Shown piece after piece: positions 13,304 through 63,599 of a stretch of DNA of 64,000 nt. Made by a program: the position numbers and the translations under genes. The notes under the pieces were generated by a model. The model was not told where the DNA came from and ran no database searches. It saw only the letters and a program-made list of their open reading frames with translations. Source of the stretch: a virus; IMG/VR virus record IMGVR_UViG_3300006925_000008, positions 33,369 to 97,368 of that record. The stretch is one strand, 5' to 3'. Numbering within the stretch: the first letter of the stretch is position 1; each line of letters starts with the position of its first letter.

Positions 13304-13304
13304 T

Positions 13305-13949: not shown

Positions 13950-13959
13950 AATAATCAAC

Positions 13960-18780: not shown

Positions 18781-19332
18781 TCAATAATCGTCTCCGATTT
18801 CAAGATGTCTTACTTTTCCGCCTTGTCTGCGTTGTTGTTTTCCGGCATGTCTCGACTCGGCTCTCCGGCGTGAACATGTTGAAGGGACTTCACCAGCGGC
18901 ACATTGGTCAGGGGAGTCCGTTGACATAGCACCGCACCCTCTTACTGAACATGGCTGTGCTTTGATCAGGGACCAACCGCAGTCACCCGCTTCTTGAATT
19001 GCTTTAGCGAGTTTAGCCTTCTTTGGGTAACAGTTTTCACATGCATTGCCGTCAGTGTCCGTCCCGTCCGAGCAATTCATACAATTCATATTCTTGTATG
19101 CCTTTTCATCACTCTTAGCAACTTTCTTGTTGCCATCCTCATCCATGTCCAATATATTGACGGCATTAGGTGAAGAATCCGTGACCTGCTTAGGAACGCC
19201 ACACTTTTGGTTACATTCGCTTTTCTGTGCTGGTGTGCATTCAGAATAATTGCAGTTGAAATGTTTCTGACAGTATGCGTTCTTTTCATCCATGTCGGCT
19301 CTCGCCTTCAAAATTAACTCATTTAGATTCAT
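18781..19332 (-). CDS. Cys-rich protein with two sorting-like motifs (183 aa)
   Basis: Begins MNLNELILKARADMDEK, the same leader style as the gene at 37559 (MNDLILKAREEQ). It then has several Cys clusters (CQKHFNCNYSEC, CNQKC, CMNC, CENC) likely to bind zinc, and an internal AIQEAGDCGWSLIKAQP that matches the WxLLKA tag. The C-terminus is Arg-rich. The ATG overlaps the preceding stop (ATGA). Role unknown; a small virion cargo or nucleic-acid-binding protein is plausible. Confidence 0.72.
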   Translation of the reverse strand: MNLNELILKARADMDEKNAYCQKHFNCNYSECTPAQKSECNQKCGVPKQVTDSSPNAVNILDMDEDGNKKVAKSDEKAYKNMNCMNCSDGTDTDGNACENCYPKKAKLAKAIQEAGDCGWSLIKAQPCSVRGCGAMSTDSPDQCAAGEVPSTCSRRRAESRHAGKQQRRQGGKVRHLEIGDDY

Positions 19333-32886: not shown

Positions 32887-34294
32887 TTTGCCACCCCAGT
32901 CTCTTACTCCATGTGTCGGCATCAAGGATTACAATGTTATCCCTATACTCTTTTGTTGCTTGAACAGACAAAGCGAGCGCAATGACCATATCGTCGTGTG
33001 CGCCTAAACTCTCCATCCTGCCATTCTCAAGCATGGTAAATGTTGACAATTCAGTGATAAGGTTGTTCATGTGCCTCAATGTCGAGCCTTGGTCCTTGTA
33101 AGGAATCGCTAAATGCCCTTGTTCAAAGTGTAACTGCAATGTATGAATTAACGCTTCTTTCTTCATACGGCTCATATTGAACGGTTTGATTGGTAAATCG
33201 CTAATCTCTTTTAATACTTGATTGAATGCTACTGCAAAGTTGTTTGTCTCTAATTCGATAATAACTGGGTTAAATCGTGCATTCAATTCAATGATTTTAT
33301 CAATCTGACTACTGAAGTCCATCCCCTTTTCATGATGGGTGTGAATCACTCTCTTATGCCTGTTCTCATCCATGGCGATGACCATCATGCAGGTGTAATC
33401 CGCTTTTCTGTTTGCACTGATAGCAGGGTCCCAGCCAATGTAGTAATTGAAATGTTCATCGGGGTCGGGGTAATATGAGAGGGATAATGAATCGTCCTTT
33501 GCGTTTGCGATCATCTCTTCAGGGAATAGGCTCTCTTCACTGGATAGTGGTTGACATAGGTATTCACGGGTAAATGCAATAGAAGTCATCTCATTGCGTC
33601 TTGAGTTTAATGCGTCTATGTTCCACCGTTCAGGCCATAGGGGGTCGCCAGTCTTTTCGTTGATTGCCGGATACTCCCTGACTTCATACCCCTTGAGTCC
33701 TTTCAATTCAGCATAAAGGTCTGTGAAAGAGAACGGAGTCCCAACTATGCACAACTGTGCGGTGTGGTGAAGAACAGGCAATAGTGCGGTGTAAAACCAT
33801 TGAGCGACGGACTTCAATTGAGTTGCCGCTTCACTGGATAAAATATCGTCAAGCACTACAATATCAGGGTGCGCTCCACGAACCGCTTTGCCAACAGACA
33901 TTGCCCGAATAGAAGACTTGTTTGTCATTTTGAACAATTGCTTCGCCCATCCACGCTTCGGTTTTAGGTGCTGTAAAGCGGGGGTCATCATAATCAATTC
34001 ATCCATTTTCGCCATGTGGTCAATGGATTGATGTTGACTGTGTGAAAAGAATAGGACTTCTGTTCCGGGGTTGTATGCCATTTTCCAAAGAAGGTAAACA
34101 CGATAGAACACAGACTTGCCGTGGTCTCGTGATGCAATAACGCAGGTTTTGTTATGTCCCTCCGACATCTCATACCATTCTTTGTGAAAGTGTGCTAACT
34201 GAAATCCGCATATGTCTTCAAAGAAGTATTTGAAATCACGGCGACCCATCTCATAATCGACTTTTCCGGTTAAGTCGAGCAGGGGGTTACTCAT
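32879..34294 (-). CDS. terL: Terminase large subunit (471 aa)
   Basis: ATPase-nuclease packaging motor. A deviant Walker A ASRDHGKS (54-61), Walker B DIVVLDDI (144-151) and the coupling motif IVGTPFSF are present. The nuclease half begins NYYIGWDPAISANRKADYT with the first acidic ligand, and has a later acidic cluster (LGAHDDMVIALAL). Its ATG overlaps the previous stop (ATGA). The tag core is absent, as expected for a motor that is not part of the virion. Confidence 0.92.
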   Translation of the reverse strand: MSNPLLDLTGKVDYEMGRRDFKYFFEDICGFQLAHFHKEWYEMSEGHNKTCVIASRDHGKSVFYRVYLLWKMAYNPGTEVLFFSHSQHQSIDHMAKMDELIMMTPALQHLKPKRGWAKQLFKMTNKSSIRAMSVGKAVRGAHPDIVVLDDILSSEAATQLKSVAQWFYTALLPVLHHTAQLCIVGTPFSFTDLYAELKGLKGYEVREYPAINEKTGDPLWPERWNIDALNSRRNEMTSIAFTREYLCQPLSSEESLFPEEMIANAKDDSLSLSYYPDPDEHFNYYIGWDPAISANRKADYTCMMVIAMDENRHKRVIHTHHEKGMDFSSQIDKIIELNARFNPVIIELETNNFAVAFNQVLKEISDLPIKPFNMSRMKKEALIHTLQLHFEQGHLAIPYKDQGSTLRHMNNLITELSTFTMLENGRMESLGAHDDMVIALALSVQATKEYRDNIVILDADTWSKRLGWQSA

Positions 34295-37200: not shown

Positions 37201-37581
37201 CTTCCCCAACTTTGAGCCGGGGGGTGCGCTTACTACTTCTTCAACAGGAGTTGCTGGGGGGGTATTGTCAGGAACAATGTCAGCAGGAACATATTCAGTT
37301 GTTGTATTTTGCACTACACCGGGGTCGGCAGGTGCTTCTGTGTCCTCACTGATCGTGCGAACCGATGGTGCGGCGGCGGCTTCACGCCTCTCCGTCATTC
37401 TCTCCATTGCACCCGGTATTCGTCTTGCTCTTTCTTGGGCTTGTCGTTTTGCACGACCAAAGGACTCAAAGAATCCCTTTTCTAAATCATCCCAAACTAA
37501 ATCAAATGCTTCATCATGCCTATCGGACTGCTTACCCTCGGCCTTCAATAGCAAGACATCAAACTTGTCTTCGCCTTCCAT
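34291..37581 (-). CDS. Large acidic head-region protein (1096 aa)
   Basis: The N-terminus EDKFDVLLLKAEGKQSD carries the VLLLKA motif and is followed by DEAFDLVWDDLEKGFF, which resembles the AFDxAWxLLK tag. Residues about 60-550 are extremely acidic and Glu/Asp/Pro-rich with a basic helical patch (SKKRAAQVKAREVEIKEL), probably disordered. The last third is more folded (RRYMKPDEFGTHYDFDELES; TSFSLAGK-like loops absent). It precedes the terminase. A DNA-mimic-like or internal head protein is possible; function unknown. Confidence 0.7.
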   Translation of the reverse strand: MEGEDKFDVLLLKAEGKQSDRHDEAFDLVWDDLEKGFFESFGRAKRQAQERARRIPGAMERMTERREAAAAPSVRTISEDTEAPADPGVVQNTTTEYVPADIVPDNTPPATPVEEVVSAPPGSKLGKPDDINNKVNQSKAQSAARTKEISASKKRAAQVKAREVEIKELKEQLAAVRASIKRQNKSNKDDAKEDLVSEVPSATNTEVADVVPNPPADSTPESEEEEENPTRVVNWSGSPSKKEKVEETEQTVEDKAALAGFDEMMSNNDLDSAESETNPDIGGVNRRIQEEIIEETKPPNSDSLLEVIPLSNKVDNDKLLDLLNLVPVGGKKESTEDIAEETMQVEMPKRMYQVADDGTIIGSKITKKKAEKLIGGEATFDGKVLQLNRPPTDKEKQMASSRWDNEKGQSVPIEVVDDLVEDAKVEPPNDEEWEDADEGEDFEEPTLTEEDIIGHEFETDVMDAIRTDIEGATPGDLDNPDLGPEDGETMGGMMEMPDILDKPKDEPDKPEDFPMIYASNAEEYWPMYMEEAEGGNLAAAKHLKNSLDEDLANALGENYDDMYDDLNDLIASIEGDQKSPSILSEREALGEEGYAKKYTYGNDRDPNMRRYMKPDEFGTHYDFDELESEPPTLSPDELIAAISYARKLTIGTGKQRNPPNTYVYWNDAGEPVGMRAIDRYTGRMLNVGATQLPGMSKPMETYDNMFFESELDKDDPNFVSPEDRQRFKDESRDVYANQKYRVTQVDPDKIAEAVKAIGPIGSSSGKSKYRTFEGPSFSHIDDVPGLDEKDEHGNYLKRDIYLSSLQRALERKYKDSPKKITTPSMFPDPTATNEAGELIHPFNPEGHTGLDGMKLPQYDFATRTGQGMSGLPRKKVAGMPFSIINALKKKGFRPKNRSARPDDSETRIMFGQGQGTPKSGKMVPGMKGQFGFDDLNPEMHALPDRQMRSEVSRRMPIDDVNATLHETGPNDFKELLAGKEGERMIGNQSFSASLLAALNHWPTKDMAVRYPGEGMKDGVGPMSVSSQLGEGIPMSMHIAPRTISEDGTPPRRMLKSENSNDNYSLLPSSFFDQGPQKQMAVQDNMSLLPAGWGDDQ

Positions 37582-42524: not shown

Positions 42525-42529
42525 TTTAA

Positions 42530-51499: not shown

Positions 51500-52309
51500 T
51501 CACCTTACATTGGACCCGTCGAAGCAACGCTTGCAGTCTCCGCAGGTTCCCTCAATACTTTGATCGTGCGCTTTTCGTATATTCAATGGACATAGTGCTT
51601 TGTATCTATCGCCCTTCTCGTTTAACAATTCTGAATAAAGCAATGCTGGGGGGGAGTAATTGTCGTAAAAAAACAAAGAAACACCATGGTCATCCATTAT
51701 TTGTTGCATGTCAGGGTATTCGCCTTTGTCGCACTGATATGAAAAGAATATACGGTCTTTCATAGGAATGTCTAATGAAAGCACCTTTTCCCTACGCTTT
51801 AGGGATTCTTTATCGAGACTAAAGTGTAAATGGAGATTCGGATAATTCTTTACAAGTTTTGCCATTTTTGGTATTCTTGTCACAATCCATATGACCACAT
51901 CGGGATGATTTTCACCTATGTGGTTCAATGCTTCAACAGATTCAGGGAATAGGTCGCCTCCGCCGTTCCACCGCAGGTAAGTAAGTGAACGCTTACGATA
52001 TTCTTTAATGACTTCTTCAGCGAACCAAATGGGGTCTTTGACACAGTTTTCGTAGCACCAAACCTGTTTTCTTAGAGAATTGGTCCACGCCGTCATCCCA
52101 TTGGCATAATAGCAGGTCTTGACGCACAATTTAGATGGATTGCATGTCCCCTGTATAGGAAAATTAAGCGACCATCCTGATACCTTGTTTGCGCTTAATA
52201 TGTCAGTTGGCCTCTTCAATTCAGGCATTTCGTCGTTTTGGTCAAGTATTTTGAGCCTTATGTCCTTTGTTTTCTTGATAACTCTCGTTACACGGGCTTG
52301 GTCGGCCAT
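51500..52309 (-). CDS. GP88-like Cys-rich protein (269 aa)
   Basis: Core motifs: GTCNPSKLCVKTCYYANG (three Cys), LRWNGGGDLFPESVEAL, IWIVTRIPKMAKLV, and a C-terminal CPLNIRK...GTCGDCKRC cluster. The layout fits gp88-type proteins with a TIM-barrel, radical-SAM-like look and probable Fe-S binding. It is the shorter relative of the gene at 47728. No cargo tag is seen. Possible role in modification of DNA, RNA or protein; not provable here. Confidence 0.72.
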   Translation of the reverse strand: MADQARVTRVIKKTKDIRLKILDQNDEMPELKRPTDILSANKVSGWSLNFPIQGTCNPSKLCVKTCYYANGMTAWTNSLRKQVWCYENCVKDPIWFAEEVIKEYRKRSLTYLRWNGGGDLFPESVEALNHIGENHPDVVIWIVTRIPKMAKLVKNYPNLHLHFSLDKESLKRREKVLSLDIPMKDRIFFSYQCDKGEYPDMQQIMDDHGVSLFFYDNYSPPALLYSELLNEKGDRYKALCPLNIRKAHDQSIEGTCGDCKRCFDGSNVR

Positions 52310-52346
52310 GATACTCCCACTCCTGTCAACTCTATTAACTGATCAT

Positions 52347-52736
52347 TCAAATCTCACGAGCGATATAGCCTCTTGAATGAATCTCTTTTGGCTTCGTCCG
52401 TTCAACATCGGTCAATGGATACCCAACCGATTTGCCTTCTTTATCCTCTTTTGACCCCTTTGGGACTCTATGTTGTTTTCTATCCCGGTCAAACTCCTGT
52501 GAATTGTTGTATTGCTTTGGCTTTTCAATATCCATAAAGCCGACTAATTCAGCGGGACCTTTGCCCGTCCTGATAATACCGACCTCCTCACCCACATACG
52601 GGTCGAGACTATTGGTCCTTCTAGTTTCAATGGTCTTCTCACCATCAAGTATCATTTCAGTATATGGGGCTTCACTATCATTGATGTTAATCCCCATCTG
52701 TTTAACCAATGCCCACGCTCGGTCAAAGGCCGTCAT
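52347..52736 (-). CDS. Tagged ASCH-domain protein (129 aa)
   Basis: Starts MTAFDRAWALVKQMGI (tag), then an ASCH/PUA-like part: PYTEMILDGEKTIETRR (24-40), VGEEVGIIRTGKGPAELVGF and a final charged tail. ASCH domains bind RNA or modified bases. Start at 52736, five codons after a GTG. One of the consecutive tagged cargo genes. Confidence 0.78.
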   Translation of the reverse strand: MTAFDRAWALVKQMGININDSEAPYTEMILDGEKTIETRRTNSLDPYVGEEVGIIRTGKGPAELVGFMDIEKPKQYNNSQEFDRDRKQHRVPKGSKEDKEGKSVGYPLTDVERTKPKEIHSRGYIAREI

Positions 52737-52760
52737 GGTAATGGGACGCACCGATCATAC

Positions 52761-53180
52761 TTAGGCGATCTGTTTGGTTATAGCCCAAGCATCAACAAAT
52801 GCTTTGTCAGATGATGCAGTGAAGTAATCGGCCAAACGACTCCCGCCTTTATTCCAGTCAGGGTCTTCAGGGTCAATTTCTAAACCGTGAGTATCCTCTT
52901 CAACATCTCTCGGATTAAATCTAGGTTGGGGGTTGGAGGGGTTCATACCCTGCGGGTCCGTGGGGTCCGGCTTGTATCCCCTGAATGGGTTAGGCTTTTC
53001 ATTTTCCCTGCCGGTGTATGCTCGTGGGATAAAACCTGATTGCCTTCTCCCCTCTTTTTCATAATCCTCTAGGGGTATTCCTGTTGTTCGTGGGTCGGTG
53101 TCGTCCCAGTCTTCCTCCTCGTCATCAGCAGGAGCCATTGCCGACTTTAGAACATTCCATGCCCGATCAAAGGCCGACAT
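52761..53180 (-). CDS. Tagged acidic/Pro-rich protein (139 aa)
   Basis: Starts MSAFDRAWNVLKSAMAPAD (tag), then acidic Asp/Glu and Pro/Gly/Arg-rich low-complexity sequence, with C-terminal FVDAWAITKQIA, possibly a second, diverged copy of the tag. The ATG shares one base with the previous stop (TGATG). Probably disordered; function unknown. Confidence 0.7.
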   Translation of the reverse strand: MSAFDRAWNVLKSAMAPADDEEEDWDDTDPRTTGIPLEDYEKEGRRQSGFIPRAYTGRENEKPNPFRGYKPDPTDPQGMNPSNPQPRFNPRDVEEDTHGLEIDPEDPDWNKGGSRLADYFTASSDKAFVDAWAITKQIA

Positions 53181-53665
53181 CAACAATTCCACCGTTTTAA
53201 TGAAGCACCCTTTGGGGTAAGTTTGCCGCCTTTACTGGTTGGTCCCTTGACACCGCCCATTCTTGCACAGAACGATTTACGGCGTTTTGCTTTTTTAGAG
53301 CCGGGTTTGAGGGATGATGGCTTTTCAGTTACAGGTGGCTTCAGATTCGCCCCTTCTTCTCTTTTTGCTTTGGCTCGGCCTTTAGCATTTAATCCACCCT
53401 TTTTGCTGTGTTTGTTTGGATTGTAACCATGAAATGGCTTTGACTTAGCCTTTGTTAAAAGAGATGCAACAAGCACATTGCATGTGCCGCAGTCACAAGC
53501 CGACTTCTTTGTCGATGATGGGACGCAGTTTGGGACTTTACGACCTCCCTTTTCTTTCATACCAACCTGCTTGTATCCGTCCCAGCAAGGGTCTTCCTTC
53601 TCCTCTTTGTATGTCTTTTCCTCGTTTTTCAACAGGGACCATCCATTAGCAAAAGCAGATGACAT
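53180..53665 (-). CDS. Tagged basic protein, widespread phage Lys-rich family (161 aa)
   Basis: Starts MSSAFANGWSLLKNEEKTY (tag; ATG 53665 six bases after GAGGA). Then DPCWDGYKQVGMKEKGGRKV...PNCVP, and C-terminal KGGLNAKGRAKAKREEGANL with KRRKSFCARMGGVKGPT...LKRWNC. These two blocks recur together in many phage and virus hypothetical proteins. Strongly basic, probably nucleic-acid binding. Function unproven. Confidence 0.78.
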   Translation of the reverse strand: MSSAFANGWSLLKNEEKTYKEEKEDPCWDGYKQVGMKEKGGRKVPNCVPSSTKKSACDCGTCNVLVASLLTKAKSKPFHGYNPNKHSKKGGLNAKGRAKAKREEGANLKPPVTEKPSSLKPGSKKAKRRKSFCARMGGVKGPTSKGGKLTPKGASLKRWNC

Positions 53666-53667
53666 AA

Positions 53668-54312
53668 TCATTCCTCGTTTTTAGAGTCCTTTTTATCGCT
53701 TGGTTTCTTAAACTTTGAAGAACCCGGCATAGTGTGAGTATTCTTTCTTGCACGGTCAATTAGACCCTGCCCTAGTTTAGGTGGCTTTGCGGGGTTCTCC
53801 ATGTCAGGAGATTTACCTTTTCTGTCGCCGCCAGCGGTTCGTCTTTTTTCCTCACTACGCTTCTGTTCGTAGTTTTTAGGAGACATTTCACGCATTGGAC
53901 CTTCGCCTTGTCCACCATACGGCTCGCCCGTATCACCTTTGCCGGGGTAGTCTTTTGGATTCGCCATCATTCTTTTTTGGCGTTCCGGGTCCATTTGGCC
54001 CATTGCATCAGGAGGAGTAATGTCTCCCCTATCAAACATTCTTGTTCTTGGAGGCGGTGAGTCGTATTCAGAAGGTGGTCCCGTTGGGTTCATTCCTCCC
54101 ATTGGGTTTTGATGCATTGGAGGGATTTTTTGGCCCTCTTCAACTCTCATGTTGATCAGCGCATCTAGTAAACGGGGGTTCATTCGACGCATGGCATCAG
54201 CATGGGAGCCTTGCCCCAGTGGACCATTGATGGTATTACCATCCATTGGGTCATCACCATACATATTTGGCATTTTAAGCACGCTCCATGCACGCTCAAA
54301 GGAATCGGACAT
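53668..54312 (-). CDS. Tagged Met/Pro/Gly-rich protein (214 aa)
   Basis: Starts MSDSFERAWSVLKMPNMYG (tag), followed by low-complexity Met/Pro/Gly-rich and Lys-rich sequence with no folded domain visible. The tag is the only conserved part. Might be a disordered cargo or spacer protein. Next to the 56-aa zinc protein. Confidence 0.7.
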   Translation of the reverse strand: MSDSFERAWSVLKMPNMYGDDPMDGNTINGPLGQGSHADAMRRMNPRLLDALINMRVEEGQKIPPMHQNPMGGMNPTGPPSEYDSPPPRTRMFDRGDITPPDAMGQMDPERQKRMMANPKDYPGKGDTGEPYGGQGEGPMREMSPKNYEQKRSEEKRRTAGGDRKGKSPDMENPAKPPKLGQGLIDRARKNTHTMPGSSKFKKPSDKKDSKNEE

Positions 54313-54335
54313 GGTTTTGCGAGGGTGTTTAATAC

Positions 54336-54506
54336 CTAAACACTTTCTATAAGACCGGCTTCTTTTATCTCATCCTGCGTCATTTCACGCATCCGCCGCT
54401 GGCATTTACTGCAATTGGGCCTTTTGGCTATTGAATACAACCGATGGATTGATTTTGTGTCAACATTGTAACATCCCCTGCGACATTCGCACCATCTATA
54501 CGGCAT
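54336..54506 (-). CDS. Very small zinc-binding-like protein (56 aa)
   Basis: Too short for usual ORF cut-offs. MPYRWCECRRGCYNVDTK, then PNCSKCQRRMREM: a CxC...C and a CxxC pair that could bind zinc. The rest is basic and helical. It lies between two tagged genes, in a gap that would otherwise be empty. Convincing composition but no ribosome site is clear. Confidence 0.55.
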   Translation of the reverse strand: MPYRWCECRRGCYNVDTKSIHRLYSIAKRPNCSKCQRRMREMTQDEIKEAGLIESV

Positions 54507-54561
54507 AGATTTCAAGAGATGGGCTGTTGGTTTTTGAATGTTTACTTCGGGTCAAAGGGTT

Positions 54562-55275
54562 TTATTGTCCCCTCTCTCTCAAACGCCTTACAAAGTCATG
54601 TGGTTTTGAACCACCAATCAACATATCATTTGTTGTGATTTTATCCCAAAGTGGTTGTTCACCGTATAACTCTTCAAGGGCTTCATACAATTCCCCTGAA
54701 TGCACTTCATCGCCTCGTAAATCGGGATAAATAGATTCCCAGTGGCCACGCCCTCCTTTTCGGGGCGGGAGGAATATATTATCCCATGCCTCATCCTCAT
54801 CACCATCATCGGAGTAATGTTCTTCCTCAAAGTCATCCATTTCTTCGTCATACAAATCCGAGTCAATGATATTTTGAATGATTTGGGCTATGTGTTCATC
54901 CGGCAATTTTTTTGAATGAGGCGGGACAACCCCTTCTTGATCATGAAAAGCCACACGGCCTCTTTCAATTGCGCTTGAAATACCATTACCCATGTATTCT
55001 TCATCCCTCGGAACATCAATGTATTCATCCTTTGGCGCAGTTGCCATGTGTAATTCGGGATAATGCACATTTGCATCAACAAAAGGCGAACCCTCGTAAT
55101 CGTTGCGTGGACCAAACATTGCGTAAGCCAAAGCCTTTGATTTGTGCGGTGTCCAATATCCTGTGTCTTCGTCACCAGTCCTTCGACCTTGGTATAAATA
55201 ATCAGTCTGCAAACCGCCGTCCTCGACGACAAAAGGCATTTTGAGAAGACTCCAAGCCTGATCGAATGCGGTCAT
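54562..55275 (-). CDS. Tagged ADP-ribosyltransferase-like protein (237 aa)
   Basis: Starts MTAFDQAWSLLKMPFVVED (tag). Residues 24-55 read TDYLYQGRRT...TGYWTPHKSKALAYAMFG: an LYxGR strand, a YWT step and an ALAYA helix, as in ADP-ribosyltransferase-like folds. A downstream acidic stretch could hold the catalytic Glu, but I cannot place it. The second ART-like gene is at 57378. Adjacent to the next gene with no gap. If active it would modify host proteins or nucleic acids. Confidence 0.62.
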   Translation of the reverse strand: MTAFDQAWSLLKMPFVVEDGGLQTDYLYQGRRTGDEDTGYWTPHKSKALAYAMFGPRNDYEGSPFVDANVHYPELHMATAPKDEYIDVPRDEEYMGNGISSAIERGRVAFHDQEGVVPPHSKKLPDEHIAQIIQNIIDSDLYDEEMDDFEEEHYSDDGDEDEAWDNIFLPPRKGGRGHWESIYPDLRGDEVHSGELYEALEELYGEQPLWDKITTNDMLIGGSKPHDFVRRLRERGQ

Positions 55276-55782
55276 TCAATAATCACCTACTTCTGTGTGC
55301 CATCTCATTTTTTCCCGCCAATCACGGTCATTTGGGTCTTGGAGAATATGCGCCAACGACTCCCAACCATATTTCAAATCTCGCTTCCTGTTTTGTAATT
55401 TCCAACTAATCACATCATCTAAGGTAAGAGCATGACCGTATTCATGGTTGTAATTTTTAATAAAATCCCTGATAAATCGTTCCTCAAAAAGTGGATGGCT
55501 CGCATCCTTTGATGCCGCAAGCATTTCCTCAAAGCCTTTCATGTCTTCTATTTTGTCAGCATCATCTATCATATTAAAACTGGTTCCCATCGCAATGTTA
55601 GGGAGGTGCAAAAGAATGTTGCCTTCATTTGGTTGGTCGGAGATAAACAGGCCTTCAGGTATGGTCGCCCTATTGCTTTCTTCACCCGTAATGTCTTGAT
55701 AGCGTTTATGCCAATTGCTTTCGCTTGTTGTCAAATCAGGAGATATTTTGATTAAACCCCATGCGGTGTCGAAGGCGGTCAT
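55276..55782 (-). CDS. Tagged HExxH metallopeptidase-like protein (168 aa)
   Basis: Starts MTAFDTAWGLIKISPDL (tag). Zinc-site motif HEYGH (113-117) with a downstream Glu in YGWESLAHILQDP (Glu141), as in gluzincins. ILLHLPNIAMG and the ESLA...DW.EK end resemble the gene at 58681-59751 (LISLPNI; QESLASIYEDP; DWKQK), so the two are paralogues. ATG overlaps the previous stop by 4 nt. Probably processes host or virion proteins. Confidence 0.75.
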   Translation of the reverse strand: MTAFDTAWGLIKISPDLTTSESNWHKRYQDITGEESNRATIPEGLFISDQPNEGNILLHLPNIAMGTSFNMIDDADKIEDMKGFEEMLAASKDASHPLFEERFIRDFIKNYNHEYGHALTLDDVISWKLQNRKRDLKYGWESLAHILQDPNDRDWREKMRWHTEVGDY

Positions 55783-56552
55783 TCATACCCCTCCAACCAT
55801 TTTGGTTTACCGTCAATAGTGAGGGTGTTTGGGTTGTCAGAATAAGGCTCAAGGAGCCGCATCAAATCATTAAATCTCTTAAATCTGCCTTCATCTCTAT
55901 CGTTAAAGAAGTCCAATACCTTTGAAGTCGGATGTTGAATGCCGTAAGGGTTCAATGCTTCCGTTTGATATTTCTCCGGGTTATCAGCCTGAAGAGACCT
56001 ATCAAACTCTATTCCAATACCATCAAGGTCAAAATTGCGTAAGTGTCCCGCACTGTCGGTCCCATAATTTCCTTTATGCCTGTCTTGAATAAGATGTGCA
56101 AGCGCACGATCAGCCACCTCAAATTGTTGATTGACATCCATGTTGCCGCCCCCTCGCATTACATTGGCGTTCAATTTAGGCTGAATTGTATGCTCCCATT
56201 CGGAACCCGGCATTTCAGGGGCTAAAGGATAACCAAGTTGCTCAAGGAATTGAAGAGTTTCTGCTTCATCAGGTTTCATGCGACGGGTCTTGAAACTATC
56301 ACGATAATAATCGTCATCGTGCGGGACCTTAACAACAAAGTCTTCGCTCCATGGGTGTTCAAACACATGAGTTTTTGACCCGCTATTTAGAAAACCCTCT
56401 ATGTCCTCTTTATATTCGTCATCATCAGTGTCCCACTGTTCAATGAAAGGCATTTCATCCTCTTCAACAGGCCCTATGTCTCTAACTTCATCACGCCAAT
56501 TTGGTGTGTAATTTTTGAGAAGGCTCCAAGCCTGATCGAATGCGTCAACCAA
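55779..56552 (-). CDS. Tagged kinase-like protein (257 aa)
   Basis: TTG start at 56552, with AAGGAGG seven bases upstream. Starts MVDAFDQAWSLLKNYT (tag). Later DFVVKVPHD (Lys75 in a VVKV strand), EAETLQFLEQLGYPL (helix C-like), LIQDRHKGNYG (Asp157...Asn162, catalytic-loop pattern) and NFDLDG (174-178, metal-binding pattern) make a protein-kinase-like fold likely. An upstream in-frame extension is not needed. Could phosphorylate host targets. Confidence 0.68.
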   Translation of the reverse strand: MVDAFDQAWSLLKNYTPNWRDEVRDIGPVEEDEMPFIEQWDTDDDEYKEDIEGFLNSGSKTHVFEHPWSEDFVVKVPHDDDYYRDSFKTRRMKPDEAETLQFLEQLGYPLAPEMPGSEWEHTIQPKLNANVMRGGGNMDVNQQFEVADRALAHLIQDRHKGNYGTDSAGHLRNFDLDGIGIEFDRSLQADNPEKYQTEALNPYGIQHPTSKVLDFFNDRDEGRFKRFNDLMRLLEPYSDNPNTLTIDGKPKWLEGYE

Positions 56553-57381
56553 AGAACCGCCTCCTTCGTAATTCATCCATGATACCCTGATGCTCCATGC
56601 CTTCGACAAGCATTGCACCATACTCTTGTTGAGTATTGGGGGGATTGCTTTCTGAATAATACATTGGCTCATATCCCTCGTCTTCAAACTCCATCTCTCG
56701 GTTTTCCTTTAGTGGGCTGAATACCGCCTGATGTCCTTCTTCATGAGCAATGCTGTCAATGATTCTTCTGATCGTGTCCTCTTCATTCATTCCATGATAC
56801 CATGGGTGAGATAAATTAACACCAGTGTAATAATCACGCTCTTTAGAGTCATAATGCGGGTCTAGTCTCATAGAATCCCACCTTCCGGCTGACCCGTCCG
56901 GGTCATCGGTCCCATAATAGAAGTTTGACTTGAGCAAAGTCCAAGCGGTGTCGAAGGCGGTCATAGGTTCACCTGCTAATTTTTCTTGCCAATCATCACT
57001 ATGGGCTTCATCAATATGAAAATCGCCTATTTCGTCTATTTTTGATTCGGGATTGGGGATGAAAATGCGAGCGTGTTTTGGGTCTTTTGGATTCTTTCTT
57101 TTTCTTGATAGGTTTTGTAAATCCTCTTGATAATCAGCCATAGCCTGTTTAGCACCGACATATTCCCCCTTTTCATCGGCTAAACGGTTTGTGCCAATGT
57201 GTGTCCTCTCCATCGATTGTGGTTTGTCGCTATTCGGCATTAAAACCTCAATCGGTTCAGCAACATGAAACCAACGCTGAAATCTATTGAAATCACCATC
57301 TCCCTGATCGTATGCTTCTTGAAGTGTTTTTGCGGTGGCATCCTCTTCGCCTTTGCGCCAAGCGGTGTCAAAGTCGGTCAT
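56545..57381 (-). CDS. Two tagged modules in one frame; second is HExxH metallopeptidase-like (278 aa)
   Basis: First module starts MTDFDTAWRKGEEDA (degenerate tag, ATG 57381 overlapping the previous stop). At residue 140 a full tag restarts: MTAFDTAWTLLKSNFYYG. The second module has HEEGH (213-217) and EYGAMLVEGMEH, a gluzincin-like pattern. The junction ATG at 56964 has GGTGA four bases upstream, so the second part may also be translated separately. A lost stop codon between two genes would explain this. Confidence 0.75.
   Translation of the reverse strand: MTDFDTAWRKGEEDATAKTLQEAYDQGDGDFNRFQRWFHVAEPIEVLMPNSDKPQSMERTHIGTNRLADEKGEYVGAKQAMADYQEDLQNLSRKRKNPKDPKHARIFIPNPESKIDEIGDFHIDEAHSDDWQEKLAGEPMTAFDTAWTLLKSNFYYGTDDPDGSAGRWDSMRLDPHYDSKERDYYTGVNLSHPWYHGMNEEDTIRRIIDSIAHEEGHQAVFSPLKENREMEFEDEGYEPMYYSESNPPNTQQEYGAMLVEGMEHQGIMDELRRRRFFG
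56560..56566 (-). promoter_or_regulatory. Ribosome site deciding the TTG start of the kinase-like gene
   Basis: Minus-strand AAGGAGG lies seven bases before TTG 56552. It places the start so that the product begins with the same tag as its neighbours, instead of at an upstream ATG 45 codons earlier. Confidence 0.7.
56929..56964 (-). other. Internal cargo tag with own start codon
   Basis: Residues 140-151 read MTAFDTAWTLLK, identical in style to N-terminal tags. It marks the junction of two modules within one open frame. Confidence 0.65.
56969..56973 (-). promoter_or_regulatory. Ribosome site for the internal start
   Basis: Minus-strand GGTGA four bases before the ATG at 56964. It is consistent with a second translation product starting at the internal tag. 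Confidence 0.55.
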
Positions 57382-58127
57382 ATCCAATCATCCTCCGAAT
57401 ATCCAGCCTCAATAGCGGCCTCTCGTTGCCAATCCTCTAAATCATTCCATTCGCCAAGCATATCAGCCATGCTATCATCATAACCGAGCGTTTCTATAAA
57501 ATCGTCATATTCAGCCGTTCTAAACACATCTCCATCCATCTCATAACTCGGTGGTTTTGGGTTGAACCTCTCAAGTGATTCATTATTCCTGTAAGCAATC
57601 AAGCGGCTTAGAGCGTCTTTTGCGTGTTGCCCTCTTTGTTCACCGCTAAACATTTCGCCTGTTGTTCCACCCAAAGACCCAACTCCTCCAACCCTGTATC
57701 GGCCCTCATCAATGTATTCTTGAAGTAATTCAATAACTCGGTCATGCGATAACCGATCACCCATGTTATCATCATCCATAACACCAATACCGGGGCTAAA
57801 CGGGTCTTCTTGCATTATACCGACTTCGGGTTCTTGAAAATCTCTTGGGTCAATAATGCTGATACTTGGTATTGTTCTCCGCATTGGCGGGGTGGTTTTA
57901 CCTTCTGTATCTCTTCTCCCTCCCTTATCAGCATAAGGAACGGCTGAACCATACAAAGCATAATGCAAAGCAATATCAGGGTCGTTTGAATAATAGCGTG
58001 GGTCATCTCTAAAATCGCCACCGCTATACAACATCTCATCATCACCAATCTGTCTTATTCGGCCACGGTCCGAATAAACATCAATAGGGGCTTTCACCAA
58101 AGACCAAGCGGTATCGAAGGCGGTCAT
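57378..58127 (-). CDS. Tagged ADP-ribosyltransferase-like protein (249 aa)
   Basis: Starts MTAFDTAWSLVKAPIDVY (tag). Residues 30-60 read DDEMLYSGG...PRYYSNDPDIALHYALYG, matching the LYxG / YYS / ALxYA layout of the gene at 54562. A C-terminal acidic segment (YDDFIETLGYDD) is present but its catalytic role is unclear. ATG overlaps the previous stop by 4 nt. Likely ART fold. Confidence 0.6.
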   Translation of the reverse strand: MTAFDTAWSLVKAPIDVYSDRGRIRQIGDDEMLYSGGDFRDDPRYYSNDPDIALHYALYGSAVPYADKGGRRDTEGKTTPPMRRTIPSISIIDPRDFQEPEVGIMQEDPFSPGIGVMDDDNMGDRLSHDRVIELLQEYIDEGRYRVGGVGSLGGTTGEMFSGEQRGQHAKDALSRLIAYRNNESLERFNPKPPSYEMDGDVFRTAEYDDFIETLGYDDSMADMLGEWNDLEDWQREAAIEAGYSEDDWI

Positions 58128-58681
58128 GGTGGTGTTCTCCTAACCATGTATTCTCCTTTGTCATTATCCATTCTTTTTCCTTGATGAGAATACGGTGCTA
58201 TCCCCGCATCCATGTATTGAAACGCTTGGTCGGCTATCCGGTCAAGGGATTGCAGGTCAAATATCCCCGCATCGTTTAATGCGTTGATTAACGAAGCCCT
58301 CTCCAATTCCCCCATAAGCACTTCTGTTCCCATGTCGGACGGGCGTTTGAATGCGGGTATTTCATCGCTTCCATAGCGAAAGGACTTATCCTCTATACCG
58401 TCTTTCATATTTTCACCAAAGTCCCCCATCTCATAATCAATCACAGGGGGATTATCCATGCGCTCACCCCTCCTTCGTTGTAATTCGTGAGCGACACTCT
58501 CCATAAATTGTCCATCGGGAACATCTTGGTTATTCCCCGCATCAAAAGCCCTAAAATCGGGAATGCGAGAACCTCTAAATGCTAAGTTAGCGTGTGCGTC
58601 TGTAAATTGTGGGCGGTCCAAAGGTGTCGGCAACCGCATATCGGTCTTAAGTAAATCCCAAGCGGTGTCAAATGCGGTCAT
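58124..58681 (-). CDS. Tagged protein of unknown fold (185 aa)
   Basis: Starts MTAFDTAWDLLKTDMRLP (tag). Contains MESVAHELQRRRGERM, which looks like a metallopeptidase helix but lacks the second His. The rest is polar with a C-terminal part LINALNDAGIFDLQSLDRI. Function unknown; could be an inactive relative of the HExxH group. Confidence 0.68.
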   Translation of the reverse strand: MTAFDTAWDLLKTDMRLPTPLDRPQFTDAHANLAFRGSRIPDFRAFDAGNNQDVPDGQFMESVAHELQRRRGERMDNPPVIDYEMGDFGENMKDGIEDKSFRYGSDEIPAFKRPSDMGTEVLMGELERASLINALNDAGIFDLQSLDRIADQAFQYMDAGIAPYSHQGKRMDNDKGEYMVRRTPP

Positions 58682-59751
58682 CAGTCATCGCCCCCGTAAA
58701 TCAAGCGATGTAGTCTTTCTTTATCCTTTTTTACCTTTTCAGGTGATCGATAAAAGTCGGGGTTTTCTTCATAAAACTTACCCATGCTGTGAGATACTTC
58801 TCTTTGCATGTCATGATGGTCATCAAGGGAGTTACTGCTATACTCGGCAACTTTCTGTTTCCAGTCTGAATCCTCATTATGAGGGTCTTCATAAATAGAC
58901 GCTAAAGACTCCTGCATCAGTATCCGGCGCATAATGCCGCTTATGTCATCATCAACACTGCCACCTCTCCTTTGGTCGCCAACATAATGCTCTCCCCCTC
59001 TTTCTGCATATTTGTTGGTCCATTCGTGTTCTTCTTCAGGTTGAGTTGTATGACCTAATTCATGGTTAATGATGCTGATAATCCTGTCCATAATGGGAAT
59101 GTCCTCATTATCTCTTAGGTATGACTCTCTTTGAGAGTTATAAGCGTCTTGACTTCGCCTATGCCTCCTCTCGGCAATCTTGTTGTTTGCTCTTAAACGG
59201 TCTTGTTCTTTAGATTGCTCTCGCCAGTTATCGGAGTCATAATCAATACTAGGCATGTCCATCCAATGAGTATATCCCGGTGTTCTTGTCAAAGAGGGGG
59301 GACTTGGATTGTTTTTGCTATATTCCTCCTCCATGTCAAATCGAACATTTTGGGTGATGTTGGGAAGGCTGATCAACATTCGGCCATCACCAAAAAGTGG
59401 TTTGTTATAGTCATTTGATGTCTCACCTCGCCAATTAGTTTTCTGTTCGTAGCCTTCGTCACTATTGGCTTGACCGCTCGGAGTAAAACGACCATACTCA
59501 TCTAAGTAGCGTTCTCGATGTGTTTGATTCTCTTCACCGCCATGTGCGTCTTCACGGTCAGGTTTATCCCAATGAGGGACTTCATCCCAGCCACCATCCT
59601 TATCATACTTGTTTGGGTTTTCTTCGGGGGTATCCTTTAAGCGGTTATACAACCACATCCGCTTGTAAGCAATTTCTTGAGGGGTTTCATTACCCTCAAT
59701 AAAATCAAAATCAGCCTTAAGGAAAAGCCATACTTCATCGAATGCGGTCAA
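58681..59751 (-). CDS. Tagged HExxH metallopeptidase-like protein (356 aa)
   Basis: TTG start at 59751 with GGTGA five bases upstream; the GTG at 59760 is the alternative. Starts with the tag (M)TAFDEVWLFLKADF. HELGH at 230-234 and a downstream QESLASIYEDP (281-) match the 168-aa paralogue. The N-terminal 200 residues are polar. It overlaps the end of the lyase gene by 17 nt. Gluzincin-like zinc peptidase predicted. Confidence 0.76.
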   Translation of the reverse strand: MTAFDEVWLFLKADFDFIEGNETPQEIAYKRMWLYNRLKDTPEENPNKYDKDGGWDEVPHWDKPDREDAHGGEENQTHRERYLDEYGRFTPSGQANSDEGYEQKTNWRGETSNDYNKPLFGDGRMLISLPNITQNVRFDMEEEYSKNNPSPPSLTRTPGYTHWMDMPSIDYDSDNWREQSKEQDRLRANNKIAERRHRRSQDAYNSQRESYLRDNEDIPIMDRIISIINHELGHTTQPEEEHEWTNKYAERGGEHYVGDQRRGGSVDDDISGIMRRILMQESLASIYEDPHNEDSDWKQKVAEYSSNSLDDHHDMQREVSHSMGKFYEENPDFYRSPEKVKKDKERLHRLIYGGDD

Positions 59752-60622
59752 TGACTTCACCGCCTTTATTCTTGATCGCTCTTACTGCACGGCGCATTTT
59801 CATGCCACGAGGCTTATTTTTTATCCAATTAGCCAGTCGCACAGCATCTTTCAGGTCCTTTGACTTAACACCACAGTCGATGTCTCTAGCCTCGCACCAA
59901 TCCACGAATACTTCAGTCGCTAGGTTTGCACCTGAACCGGGAATGAATGGGCAACCACCTAAGCCGCCAATGCTAGTATCAAACTCGGTTATCCCTAAAT
60001 CAACAGCAATATCGACATTTTGATACAAATAAGGGCCATGATGCAGGTGTAATGCGATGTTTTCAGTAATTGCACTGGTAATGTCGTATGCTTTCTTGAT
60101 CATCACCGGAGTGGCAATACCATCGGTGTCGCATAGCACTACGCCGTTGCCGAATTGCATTCCTATTTCGACAGCATTCTTCAAGTCTTCATCGGGACAA
60201 TCGAATGCCATTGAGATATAGACACGCACTTTGCTAGGTTCTATACCCTCCAATGCCAATTTGTATTCTTCAACGATAGAATCTAAGGTCCTGCCATAGT
60301 TTGACATGTTGAATACTTCATTGGGTGAGTAAAATATGTTGAATAAGTCAGCACCTACTAACTTAGCACGGTCAACACCACGCTTATTCGGCACTAAAAC
60401 CGACATATTAGCATCTAAACCGGCAACTGCGGCATATACGCTGTCGCTTTCAGCCATATTTGGGACTAATTTGGGATGAACAAATGCACCGACTTCTATG
60501 TCAGTAAGTCCTGACTTAGCCAACGCCTCCACTAATTCCACCTTTTCATCAAATGAAATGCTATGAGGAAGTGCTTGAAGGCCATCTCTAGGCCCAACTT
60601 CAAAGATGGAGACTTTCTTCAT
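59735..60622 (-). CDS. HMG-CoA lyase-like enzyme (295 aa)
   Basis: TIM-barrel lyase of the HMGL family. EVGPRDGLQ (8-16, with Arg12/Asp13), HLHHGPY (His192, His194), and the G-loop GLGGCPFIPGSGANLATE (220-237) with Cys224 and Asn233 line up with the catalytic Cys, metal His and Asn of HMG-CoA lyase; the usual HxHDTxG is changed to HLHHGPY. Start at ATG 60622 (GGTGG six bases upstream). It would split HMG-CoA to acetoacetate and acetyl-CoA, touching the mevalonate/archaeal lipid branch. It has no tag, so it probably acts in the infected cell, not in the virion. Confidence 0.82.
   Translation of the reverse strand: MKKVSIFEVGPRDGLQALPHSISFDEKVELVEALAKSGLTDIEVGAFVHPKLVPNMAESDSVYAAVAGLDANMSVLVPNKRGVDRAKLVGADLFNIFYSPNEVFNMSNYGRTLDSIVEEYKLALEGIEPSKVRVYISMAFDCPDEDLKNAVEIGMQFGNGVVLCDTDGIATPVMIKKAYDITSAITENIALHLHHGPYLYQNVDIAVDLGITEFDTSIGGLGGCPFIPGSGANLATEVFVDWCEARDIDCGVKSKDLKDAVRLANWIKNKPRGMKMRRAVRAIKNKGGEVIDRIR
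59757..59761 (-). promoter_or_regulatory. Ribosome site for the TTG start at 59751
   Basis: Minus-strand GGTGA five bases before TTG. It makes the product begin at the tag, like the neighbouring ATG-starting genes. Confidence 0.6.
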
Positions 60623-61794
60623 ACCCATCCACCTTCAGTATCACGGAAGAAGTCTTCTCCAAGCAATTGGGCAATGCGAGAGTCGGGGTTCTTTTCACTG
60701 AAATCCATCAGGCGTTTCAATGGGACAGCGTTTTCATGAAAGAACCCGTGGACACCCGACGAACCCATTGGGGTGACATATGTCTTCAGGTCGGAGATCG
60801 GATTGCGTTCTTTGCCTTCATACCTTAATTCCAGCGGATATGTATCATGTAATTCAGGGTTGGTCTTATCGCCCCTTCTCCTGTAAATCTGTTCAAACTT
60901 GTATGGATGTGGGCTTGGCGCACCCCACTTGGTCCCTTTCAACTGCCATTTACTTGGTTCCTCATAATAACTGCCGCCCATCACGGGGCGTTGATAAATC
61001 ATATCTCCCTCTTGGTTCTTCCTTCGGATTACATGGTCTGTGTTCCACTTCCCGCCATCTCTCCAAGGCTTTCTGTTAATTGCCATCCTCCGGCCATATC
61101 CGCCCTCGGTCATTTGCCGACCAAGTTTATTCCACATGCCATAGGCTTCAGGAGAATATGAGTCATCGCCTGCCCGACCATAGGTTTGAGCCATGGTCCC
61201 CAGCATATGAGAGCCAATTCCTTGGCCACCCATTCCGGGCAATACGCTCATCTGTGCTACATTGCCATCCAGCGTTGGTGCGCCGTGTCCGACAGTCATC
61301 CATTCTTTAGAATCGGTATCCGCCTCATGGCGTATTGCCGCTTCAAGGACTTCGGGGGCTAATGCCTGTTGCCACGGAGTCCATGCCACCGGCCTCCCGC
61401 TTCCATGTCTAGCAATACGGCGTTGCTCAAGGTGTTGAGGAAACTCGGCTAGACCTAATGGACTTGAATAGCGGTCATGTTTCATTTCACGAAGGGTTGA
61501 TTCAACAGTATCTCGTCCACTTCGACTGTCCTGATAGGGTTCGTCCTCCCATTCGGCATATACATCGGGCCATTGGTCGTATCTCCTATTGCGAAGTTTA
61601 CCTAAACGGTCAATGTTCTCCTCCAAAATTGGGATAACCTTGCCAACAGGCATTTTATACTCGTGCTGAAGCACGCCAGCATCTGAATAACCCATGCTCA
61701 TGTTGGGTCTGATGAGTTGTATCAGGCTTTCAGGGGTCTGTTGAAGAATCGGGTCAGCCTTAATGAGGTCCCATAACTGGTCGAAAGTTATCAT
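60619..61794 (-). CDS. Tagged protein with GNAT-like segment (391 aa)
   Basis: Starts MITFDQLWDLIKADPILQ (tag). Residues 178-200 (NVAQMSVLPGMGGQGIGSHM) resemble GNAT motif A with its Q/RxxGxG/A acetyl-CoA loop. The C-terminal half has basic and Tyr-rich segments (MIYQRPVMGGSYYEEPSKW). ATG overlaps the previous stop by 4 nt. An acetyltransferase is plausible, not certain. Confidence 0.6.
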   Translation of the reverse strand: MITFDQLWDLIKADPILQQTPESLIQLIRPNMSMGYSDAGVLQHEYKMPVGKVIPILEENIDRLGKLRNRRYDQWPDVYAEWEDEPYQDSRSGRDTVESTLREMKHDRYSSPLGLAEFPQHLEQRRIARHGSGRPVAWTPWQQALAPEVLEAAIRHEADTDSKEWMTVGHGAPTLDGNVAQMSVLPGMGGQGIGSHMLGTMAQTYGRAGDDSYSPEAYGMWNKLGRQMTEGGYGRRMAINRKPWRDGGKWNTDHVIRRKNQEGDMIYQRPVMGGSYYEEPSKWQLKGTKWGAPSPHPYKFEQIYRRRGDKTNPELHDTYPLELRYEGKERNPISDLKTYVTPMGSSGVHGFFHENAVPLKRLMDFSEKNPDSRIAQLLGEDFFRDTEGGWV

Positions 61795-63437
61795 AGGCCC
61801 CGGTTCTCCATAAATTGACTAATATCAAAGTCTTTCCCCATAAGTTTGGCCGCATTAGCAACCGCACGGAGTCCCATTGCTTTTCGACTATCAGGGACTA
61901 CGCCAGCCTGATCGTTCACTGAACCAACCATCCGCTGGTCTTTGAGATGATGTCCAAGGTGGCTTATCTCACTTTTAGCATCATTTTGATAACTGTTGTA
62001 TTTGGGTGACAATCGCCTGTAATCTCTAAACAATGCGTCTTCAGACCCCGGTTCCATAGGAATAGAGTCATAATCAGGGTAATAGTCATCAGGGTCGATG
62101 TATTCATCCCACTTGTCCTCATACCAGCGGTTCCCTTCAGCCCCTGTTCTTACCCGGTATCCTCCGCCATATACCTCACTTCTTGGTTCAGCAAAAGCGT
62201 ATTCGTCGGAAAAGTCTGACAGTTTAGGAGGGAATGGGATGCCGGTCAACCTAGCGGTGTGAATCTCATCACCCATTGACATGCTTTCAGGAGACAGGTT
62301 GGTTCCGGGGTGAGCGGCATAATCCGCCCATGCATCCTCGTGCCTGCGATGAACACGGTTCCTTGGACCGTCTTGTCTTCGTCCAAAGGTCTTATTTGCA
62401 TTATTCAGCCCCGTTTCTTGACCTAAATGGGCCGCATACTCGTGCGCCCTGAAGAAGTTATCATCAACAAAGGCCTGCAATGCCGCCCGCTGTTCAGGGT
62501 TTGGCTTGTCATCATTTACTAAGCCATAGTCATCCTTCGCTTTCTGATCAACAGCCGCTTGATAGTGAGCCATCAATTCATCATTAACAGCGGCGTGCAT
62601 TGCTTCGTGGTGTAATGTTTGCTCAACACCCTCCTCTAATCGGTTCGATTCCTCTAAACCACGACCATAGACTCCGTAATTCATCCACCACGCTGGTGAT
62701 GACAGGTCAACGCCATAGAATCCTTTTTGCTGTTGAGGCAATACCTCACGCTTAGGCAACTGCTCCATATAGCGTTCAGGGGTTCCATCCTCGCCGTATC
62801 TCCAACGAGGCATTTCTGTTCGTGAATAGTTTTCAGCACGCCCTGCTTTGGTTCGCAGGTCATGGTTTTTACCGACTGGGACAAAATGCCCCAATGTATC
62901 TCCACCCATTGCACCCTGCATCATTCGCTTGCCATTATCCCTGACAGGCGTTCCAAAGAAGAAGTCCTTAGTGAGCATGTCCCACATGAAATCGAATGGG
63001 TCATCAAATGAAGTCGTGAAGTCTAAATCGGACCAAGGAGAGTCAGGCGGCATGTTCTCACCGCTGATCGGAATCCCATGGTCATCTTCTCTCGGACTCC
63101 ATTTGAAACCGCATTCAGTGCAATGGTCCCAGTTGTCAATGGAGGGACAGGGACATTCACCGCCTAGATAGGTCGGCATCAATGGCTTGTCAGTCATGGC
63201 CTCCTCTTCAGCAATAGCCCTAGCCTCTTCAATAGTTTCAGCATGACCCATTGCTATTGCCTCATCACCTAATTCATACAACTCATTATGGTATTCCATT
63301 GCATCCTCCGGCCATTCCTCACCGTGATTCTGTTCACCACCCATACGCCTGTCCAAAAACTGCTTTGGGTCATCGTTTTCAGCGTCAGAATCTTTCAAAA
63401 AAAGAAAACCAGCAGAAAATGCATTACCGCCGGTCAT
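61791..63437 (-). CDS. Composite tagged HExxH metallopeptidase-like protein (548 aa)
   Basis: I start at ATG 63437 (MTGGNAFSAGFLFLKDSD, a loose tag). An upstream ATG at 63500 would add 21 residues in A-rich sequence. A zinc ribbon follows (CPCPS...HCTECGFKW, 95-112), then a second tag-like segment FDDPFDFMWDMLTKDFFF (144-161), then a zinc peptidase with HEAMH (277-281) and AHEYAAHLGQE (331-341) for the third ligand. It is the first gene of the visible unit, 3' of the repeat region. Confidence 0.72.
   Translation of the reverse strand: MTGGNAFSAGFLFLKDSDAENDDPKQFLDRRMGGEQNHGEEWPEDAMEYHNELYELGDEAIAMGHAETIEEARAIAEEEAMTDKPLMPTYLGGECPCPSIDNWDHCTECGFKWSPREDDHGIPISGENMPPDSPWSDLDFTTSFDDPFDFMWDMLTKDFFFGTPVRDNGKRMMQGAMGGDTLGHFVPVGKNHDLRTKAGRAENYSRTEMPRWRYGEDGTPERYMEQLPKREVLPQQQKGFYGVDLSSPAWWMNYGVYGRGLEESNRLEEGVEQTLHHEAMHAAVNDELMAHYQAAVDQKAKDDYGLVNDDKPNPEQRAALQAFVDDNFFRAHEYAAHLGQETGLNNANKTFGRRQDGPRNRVHRRHEDAWADYAAHPGTNLSPESMSMGDEIHTARLTGIPFPPKLSDFSDEYAFAEPRSEVYGGGYRVRTGAEGNRWYEDKWDEYIDPDDYYPDYDSIPMEPGSEDALFRDYRRLSPKYNSYQNDAKSEISHLGHHLKDQRMVGSVNDQAGVVPDSRKAMGLRAVANAAKLMGKDFDISQFMENRGL
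62964..62999 (-). other. Internal tag-like segment in the composite peptidase
   Basis: Residues about 147-158 read PFDFMWDMLTKD. The Trp-to-Lys spacing is 5 instead of 4, so it is a degenerate copy. It separates the zinc ribbon part from the peptidase part. Confidence 0.4.
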
Positions 63438-63599
63438 AGTTTCCCCGAAGGGGACCCAAAAGAAAAACATTGGGGAGATCGCACGCCAAAAACAGCCCAT
63501 TGCACCCTGTTAGGGCTGACAGCCGTTACCAAAAAAAATTGGGCGTAGCGTATGCGGTCAGCCGCCGCCCCGAAAAGAAAAAAAAAACATCTCCAAAGG

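Follow-up and report, generated by a model that had tools for sequence, protein, structure and literature searches.

Why should a series of otherwise unrelated viral proteins open with one and the same short peptide? This question is raised by a window of 64,000 nucleotides (bases 33369-97368 of the 97,368-base virus record IMGVR_UViG_3300006925_000008, a 97-kb genome), where the initial annotation had noticed such a tag on a dozen accessory genes and had proposed that it sorts their products to the virus head. Judging from its gene content, the source virus is a magrovirus, that is, a tailed virus whose hosts are Poseidoniales, archaea that abound in the ocean. In this study, the distribution, conservation and carriers of the tag were investigated, and we consider that this 12-residue peptide, with the consensus [TSDN]-A-F-D-x-A-W-x-h-h-K (h, hydrophobic residue), is probably a capsid-targeting sequence which loads accessory proteins into the prohead.

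Distribution of the tag among genes and viruses

Eleven of the twelve starts named in the window carry the tag in register (61794, 59751, 58681, 58127, 56552, 55782, 55275, 54312, 53665, 53180 and 52736). Only at 57381 did the claim fail in part, as the degenerate MTDFDTAWRKGEEDA (MTDFDTAWRK; 57352..57381, minus strand, start of the protein encoded at 56545-57381) retains MTDFDTAW, lacks the LLK half and is missed by a position matrix trained on the tag. The two TTG starts described as lying in tag register do so, with the good ribosome sites GGTGA (59751) and GGAGG (56552). The genes form a tagged cassette, although not a strictly consecutive one, since the untagged genes at 59735-60628 and 54336-54515 are interspersed.

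With the matrix, 22 minus-strand peptides of the window exceeded a loose cut and no plus-strand peptide did; of these 22, the one at 50482 is probably due to chance. Searching related viral genomes in the same manner recovered the tag far above reversed-protein decoys, with 177 matches against two in 14 related genomes (1247 open reading frames, ORFs), though these counts are partly circular because the matrix was trained on matches from the same genomes, which does not apply to the pattern scans given below. A second, more distant group (three genomes, with a protease about 40% identical) gave 20 matches against one. Over a stricter threshold, 185 unique copies were obtained from 17 related genomes, as compared with 1-3 in reversed-protein decoys; among these copies, W was found in 179, F in 173 and K in 173, while Arg never occupied the Lys position (0/185).

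The pattern scans gave the same picture. The coding pattern AFDxAWxhhK was found in at least 120 stretches of IMG/VR, with a maximum of 10 copies in one stretch, as compared with two for the codon-reversed pattern, a frequency at least 60 times higher. The exact N-terminal pattern did not occur in any of 84,980 genomes of bacteria and archaea. The same S78 head protease is encoded by 31 of 40 records selected on the tag alone, and 12 of 30 fragments selected on the major capsid protein (MCP) alone hold a slightly relaxed tag pattern (40 copies; reversed control, 0/30). The genome has an opposite-strand layout, with early (replication) genes on the plus strand and structural and accessory genes on the minus strand, and the tag is restricted to the late strand almost entirely: the strand of the MCP carries 159 of 166 tagged ORFs (159/796 ORFs there, 7/421 on the other strand).

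The tag corresponds to no family in the Pfam, PHROGs, NCBIfam and PADLOC reports, so that it is not a known domain start; it matched no PDB sequence, and its literal peptide strings did not occur in the literature searched. The initial annotation knew of no family-wide tag of this form, and we likewise found, in the literature searched (several key papers lie outside that search), no report of a single tag that would serve about 72 cargo clusters at any position in archaeal viruses.

The tag had been described as a feature of protein starts, which holds for most copies. Among the 185, 106 are no more than eight residues away from the called start, and for another 35 a start codon is present at most three codons upstream. 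Of the others, 34 are internal, and 10 are nine residues or fewer from the C-terminus. In the window, C-terminal copies were detected at 52805-52770 (KAFVDAWAITKQ, followed by IA and the stop; matrix score 21.8, and kept in G001) and at 42568-42533 (KAFDTAWEISIW, directly before the stop of a 63-aa Cys-rich protein; 20.9). The former ends a 143-aa protein (52761-53192) which also bears an N-terminal tag, SAFDRAWNVLKS (53142..53177; 31.0), and is the one protein in the window tagged at both ends. Internal copies are found at 42383-42348 (KAFTIGWSIVKS, in a 109-aa protein encoded at 42222-42551; 22.9) and at 50351-50316 (AIFEDAWSVVKW; 21.9), the latter in a 777-aa protein (49017-51350) where an FHGT-containing N-terminal part precedes the tag and a D12 methyltransferase domain (PF02086, residues 384-544) follows it. 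Another internal copy, TAFDTAWTLLKS (56926..56961; 33.3), stands in the ORF 56545-57387, with an ATG before it and an HExxH domain after it. A few multi-unit fusions (49017-51350 and 56545-57387) retain the tag between units, and the majority of tagged proteins are small, unfused ones. A tag that functions in any position would be as expected of an address label.

Tagged cargo, capsid protein and head protease

Leaving aside the window's virus, 144 tagged ORFs were grouped by blastp into 72 clusters, the largest with 29 members; as the clustering was by single linkage, the two largest are possibly chained. When 123 tagged proteins were aligned with MAFFT, little was aligned besides the tag. 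The rest of each protein had been called unrelated, which is mostly so, with the reservation that some window proteins share domains: 54562 with 57378 (E=2e-6, the tag making up part of the match) and 55276 with 58681 (E=0.001), while 56545 and 61791 are weakly similar to each other in their C-terminal halves. Few named families were recognized among the tagged proteins, namely D12/Dam methyltransferases, DUF6321, GP88, GNAT, zinc ribbons and one PARP match, and a Pfam scan of the window's own tagged proteins gave almost no matches.

Two motifs are more frequent in tagged than in untagged ORFs, the strict [YF]HG[TS] (12/182 against 4/1395) and HExxH (18/182 against 15/1395), whereas no enrichment was seen for a loose ADP-ribosyltransferase pattern, [YFL][HYS][GA][TGS] (p=0.69). 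A profile built from nine YHGT proteins matches the RNA 2'-phosphotransferase KptA/Tpt1 (E=8e-5), with weaker matches to DarT and PARP14, and the KptA/Tpt1 match starts at the Lys of the tag. These matches point to the ADP-ribosyltransferase superfamily; the assignment thus comes from relatives, and the window's own 54562 and 57378 show no more than a resemblance to it. There are also tagged families of small, very basic proteins, and internal head proteins that bind DNA can have the same character. Taken together, the cargo that could be identified, namely ADP-ribosyltransferases, HExxH proteins, methyltransferases of DNA and very basic proteins, resembles proteins that phages package and inject. 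One very basic small family (..FRGYSKN..RPKMRRQLGAGGSR) has differing versions of the tag directly before the same domain; its members lie at 24736-25014 of the record (before the window), L105:4121-4381, L110:8469-8783 and L102:13031-13306, and proteins of this type are fused to longer ones in G002 and G008.

The head genes encoded on the same strand display a related signature. The MCP (21584..22753, minus strand; SU10 type, PF17236 1.7e-9, phrog_24667 8.5e-44) has the N-terminal site NAWAYSGTDLLK/AD (the slash marks the proposed cut), of which LLK is invariant in 27 relatives and LLKAD is retained in the second, more distant group; the proposed cleavage site is LLK37/AD (22640-22651, minus strand). 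The tblastn alignments to the MCPs of the haloviruses HCTV-1 and HVTV-1 begin at query residue 34 or 37, which is this site, and the halovirus proteins have about 100 extra residues ahead of the alignment, ending in ...SK/AD. In the more distant vir519, N replaces K.

The head maturation protease (22794..24122, minus strand; PF04586 2.6e-10) belongs to family S78, of which HK97 gp4 is the type. It displays such sites at ILK26 (24045-24053), ILK181 (23580-23588), VIK322 (23157-23165) and QK399 (22926-22931), all on the minus strand; K181, K322 and K399, as well as L180, do not vary among 21 sequences drawn from the two groups. ILK181 marks the end of the protease domain, and VIK322 and QK399/S lie within the variable tail. 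This tail (residues 182-442) is long, length-variable, charged and coiled-coil-like, with the conserved VIK and QKS islands, and is likely a built-in scaffold digested in maturation. Late proteins that are untagged, other than the MCP and the protease, show a modest enrichment of hhK[AS], whose density over their first 45 residues is about two times that of the remainder (p=1e-3). Since hhK is conserved at the MCP and protease sites and modestly enriched in late N-termini, we infer that it is a cleavage signature, with which the tag also ends. The likeness to HK97 lies in the S78-type protease and in the predicted MCP cut after Lys, the HK97 MCP being cut at K103/S104 (PMC10275583); the magrovirus differs in an MCP propeptide of about 37 residues against 103, in the long variable tail of its protease and in its tagged accessory cargo.

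Predicted function of the tag and competing explanations

These data are best read as the initial annotation proposed, with the tag sorting proteins to the virus head, because of the late-strand restriction, the co-occurrence with the S78 protease, the shared hhK, the kind of cargo and the position independence, with packaging itself standing as the probable consequence. Late in infection, many unrelated accessory proteins would be made bearing the tag, mostly at the N-terminus and sometimes between domains or at the C-terminus. The tag would probably fold into an amphipathic helix, one side of which presents F, A, W and the two aliphatic residues, and may bind the prohead interior, where the scaffold-like protease tail and the N-terminal segment of the MCP are candidate partners. 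Tagged proteins would thus be enclosed during prohead formation, and the S78 protease would then likely cut after hydrophobic-hydrophobic-Lys, as predicted for LLK/AD of the MCP. The freed cargo may be ejected with the DNA and act on the next host, as the type of cargo and precedent suggest. In its most far-reaching form, which we put forward tentatively, the tag would be a universal, position-independent code by which one peptide loads a large and quickly changing repertoire of host-directed effectors into the head and a protease cut after Lys frees them, so that internal tags would also be cut and fused cargo split.

Several observations weigh against the head-sorting reading. The residue after the tag Lys (P1') differs between copies (A, M, E, S, N, F and K), unlike the A/S of the MCP, and therefore cleavage after this Lys is uncertain; given packaging, we rate its chance at about one half. 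The N-terminal Lys of the protease may have a purely structural role, as a residue in a conserved strand. A few of the tags are located on the early strand or belong to tail-region genes. Neither the late half of HVTV-1 nor that of HCTV-1 yielded a tag, and no isolate carries it. AlphaFold models of the accessory protein 57378-58127 (10 sequences; predicted local distance difference test, pLDDT, 58) and of the MCP (pLDDT 29) were too poor for use, and Foldseek gave no matches with the former.

The initial annotation drew analogies to both encapsulins and T4. In encapsulins, a short cargo-loading peptide brings unrelated cargo into an HK97-fold shell, but that shell has no DNA packaging machinery and its loading peptide is C-terminal. 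The T4 analogy is the closer one because the magrovirus encodes a terminase, a portal, a protease and an SU10-type MCP and most of its tags are N-terminal; encapsulin membership is ruled out by the same features.

In T4, the capsid-targeting sequence is a short N-terminal peptide on internal head proteins (IPI-III and Alt), among them an ADP-ribosyltransferase, and is removed by the phage's head protease (PMC9958956, PMC7411985). The magrovirus likewise has a short, mostly N-terminal peptide common to otherwise unrelated proteins, a prohead protease and cargo of ADP-ribosyltransferase type, though it differs in the predicted cleavage residue, in the number of cargo clusters served (about 72), in its internal and C-terminal tags and in being archaeal. 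In phage P1, which encodes a protease, the N-terminal 30 residues of DarB suffice to bring a reporter into the head, and the Dar cargo serves counter-defence, with no consensus found among the Dar N-termini (PMC9024508); in the magrovirus, one consensus serves all the cargo. That the tag works like the targeting sequences of T4 and P1 is, by analogy, the best reading. Similarly, the cargo repertoire overlaps that of the polyvalent proteins, whose ADP-ribosyltransferase, metallopeptidase-like, GNAT and further activities were predicted by Iyer et al. 2017 to be packaged and injected with DNA (PMC5512222), but those proteins are large and multidomain, whereas in the magrovirus such activities mostly sit on separate small proteins united by the tag.

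The competing explanation that survives best, though an unlikely one, is a docking motif inside the infected cell, which would recruit late proteins to the assembly or replication site or to a host complex with no entry into the virion. A short helix-like FxxAWxhhK motif, active at the N-terminus, internally or at the C-terminus, would suit ordinary docking equally well, and the tagged methyltransferases and zinc-ribbon proteins could work in the cell. However, ordinary docking leaves aside the restriction to the late, morphogenesis strand, the linkage to the head protease, the Lys end held in common with the MCP and protease sites, and the match of the cargo classes to known packaged and injected phage proteins. 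Somewhat less probable still is a permanent, uncleaved anchor in the virion (on the capsid inner face, the portal or the packaged DNA), for which Lys would merely be part of the helix. The varied P1', the C-terminal tags that leave little or nothing beyond Lys and the tagging of tail-region genes all speak in its favor, but Lys was never replaced by Arg in the 185 copies, and the hhK form recurs at the boundary sites of the MCP and the protease.

A third alternative places the effect in the DNA, with copied 5' ends aiding translation initiation or the recombination of accessory genes and no function in the protein. Among the N-terminal tags of one genome, nucleotide identity is just about 0.59 and residue identity about 50%, and the next 36 nt drop to 0.27, the chance level. 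The codons are skewed at some positions across the 17 genomes (Thr ACC 75% against 19% background; first Ala GCC 42%; second Ala GCC 1%), which suggests that tag DNA was copied between genes. The initial argument that the codons vary and selection is therefore on the peptide is correct as to the variation and overlooks this skew; both together lead to the fair statement that there was selection on the tag peptide plus some common descent or copying of its DNA. An effect at the DNA level is nevertheless very improbable, as synonymous variation occurs while the peptide is conserved across two groups, and the internal and C-terminal copies, distant from any start codon, exclude a purely translational role and largely refute a translation or recombination artefact. 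Finally, that all carriers retain a single ancestral domain whose diverged beginning is the tag has next to no probability, for although some tagged proteins are related past the tag, as in the 29-member cluster, the number of clusters, the MAFFT result and the occurrence of the tag at either end or between domains refute a common domain start.

If the tag is indeed a capsid-targeting sequence, it concerns viruses that are abundant in the sea and most of whose accessory genes were previously without function. Many unnamed small proteins become predicted virion-borne effectors, injected proteins could be recognized by a simple test on their sequence, and a genetically encoded means of loading arbitrary proteins into an archaeal virus head suggests itself. 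Capsid targeting would thereby be widened from a few T4 and P1 proteins to an address common to a whole accessory proteome.

Further tagged sites and the surrounding genome

All the remaining tags of the window lie on the minus strand. In the ORF 61791-63500 (start about 63437), the weak N-terminal tag NAFSAGFLFLKD (63390..63425; score 10.7) is accompanied by a degenerate internal one, FDFMWDMLTKD (62964..62996), which precedes an HExxH-like domain and aligns with FDTAWTLLKSN of 56545-57387. Downstream in the cassette follow ITFDQLWDLIKA (61756..61791; 21.4) on a 391-aa protein (60619-61794), TAFDEVWLFLKA (59713..59748; 25.0) on the HExxH protein 58681-59751 with its TTG start at 59751, TAFDTAWDLLKT (58643..58678; 32.4) on 58124-58681 and TAFDTAWSLVKA (58089..58124; 36.4) on 57378-58127, whose M1, A3, F4, A7, W8 and K12 are invariant in 10 relatives. 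Next are DAFDQAWSLLKN (56511..56546; 33.5) on 55779-56552, whose TTG start at 56552 follows GGAGG, TAFDTAWGLIKI (55744..55779; 31.3) on the HExxH protein 55276-55782, TAFDQAWSLLKM (55237..55272; 36.8) on 54562-55275, DSFERAWSVLKM (54271..54306; 29.7) on 53668-54312, SAFANGWSLLKN (53624..53659; 22.9) on the basic protein 53180-53671 and TAFDRAWALVKQ (52698..52733; 33.8) on 52347-52751.

Structural-region genes at 37.5, 19.0, 13.9 and 13.3 kb are also tagged. These harbor the tag-like EAFDLVWDDLEK (37477..37512; 11.8 with the penalty for a one-residue insertion) near the N-terminus of a 1096-aa protein beside the terminase, the internal EAGDCGWSLIKA (18958..18993; 20.6) in 18781-19332, QALDSAWSLMKF (13884..13919; 24.1) in 13305-13991 and QALDSAWSQFLK (13238..13273; 16.9, one-residue insertion) in 12899-13312. 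The last two belong to overlapping paralogous tail-region genes (12899-13991) with the form KQALDSAWSxxK, and the tag may therefore reach beyond head cargo.

The portal protein (29634..31475; PF04860 1.4e-13, phrog_18178) and the terminase large subunit (32879..34294; phrog_38 1.9e-71) are likewise on the minus strand. The International Committee on Taxonomy of Viruses (ICTV) describes the order Magrovirales, with Poseidoniales hosts, as having genomes of 90-110 kb and replication and morphogenesis modules on opposite strands (PMC12999244, PMC10768690). The virus agrees with the order in size, strand layout, HK97-fold MCP, S78 protease, portal, TerL, chaperonin and HMG-CoA lyase, with the chaperonin-like and HMG-CoA-lyase-like genes recognized by reading their sequences. 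The latter gene is the untagged one at 59735-60628 within the cassette, and it overlaps at its end with the TTG start of the tagged gene that follows; the ORF at 54336-54515 encodes a small zinc ribbon. A GP88-type protein (47728-49050) and one distantly similar to it (51500-52309; phrog_1392) are both untagged in the window, unlike the GP88 proteins of some relatives.

The closest isolated relatives by MCP and protease are the haloviruses HCTV-1, HVTV-1 and HCTV-5. HVTV-1 genes 115-116 (L145 16223-20618) and HCTV-1 (L144 13968-20561) encode zeta-toxin proteins with repeated modules before each domain, such as FVKAAESVLK-DWVSDPTEQAPNRWTNTETGEHRYQE and VYVDSPxEAPxGVQVQ, and the HVTV-1 C-terminus is ADP-ribosyltransferase-like; these modules may be the haloviruses' own counterpart of the magrovirus tag.

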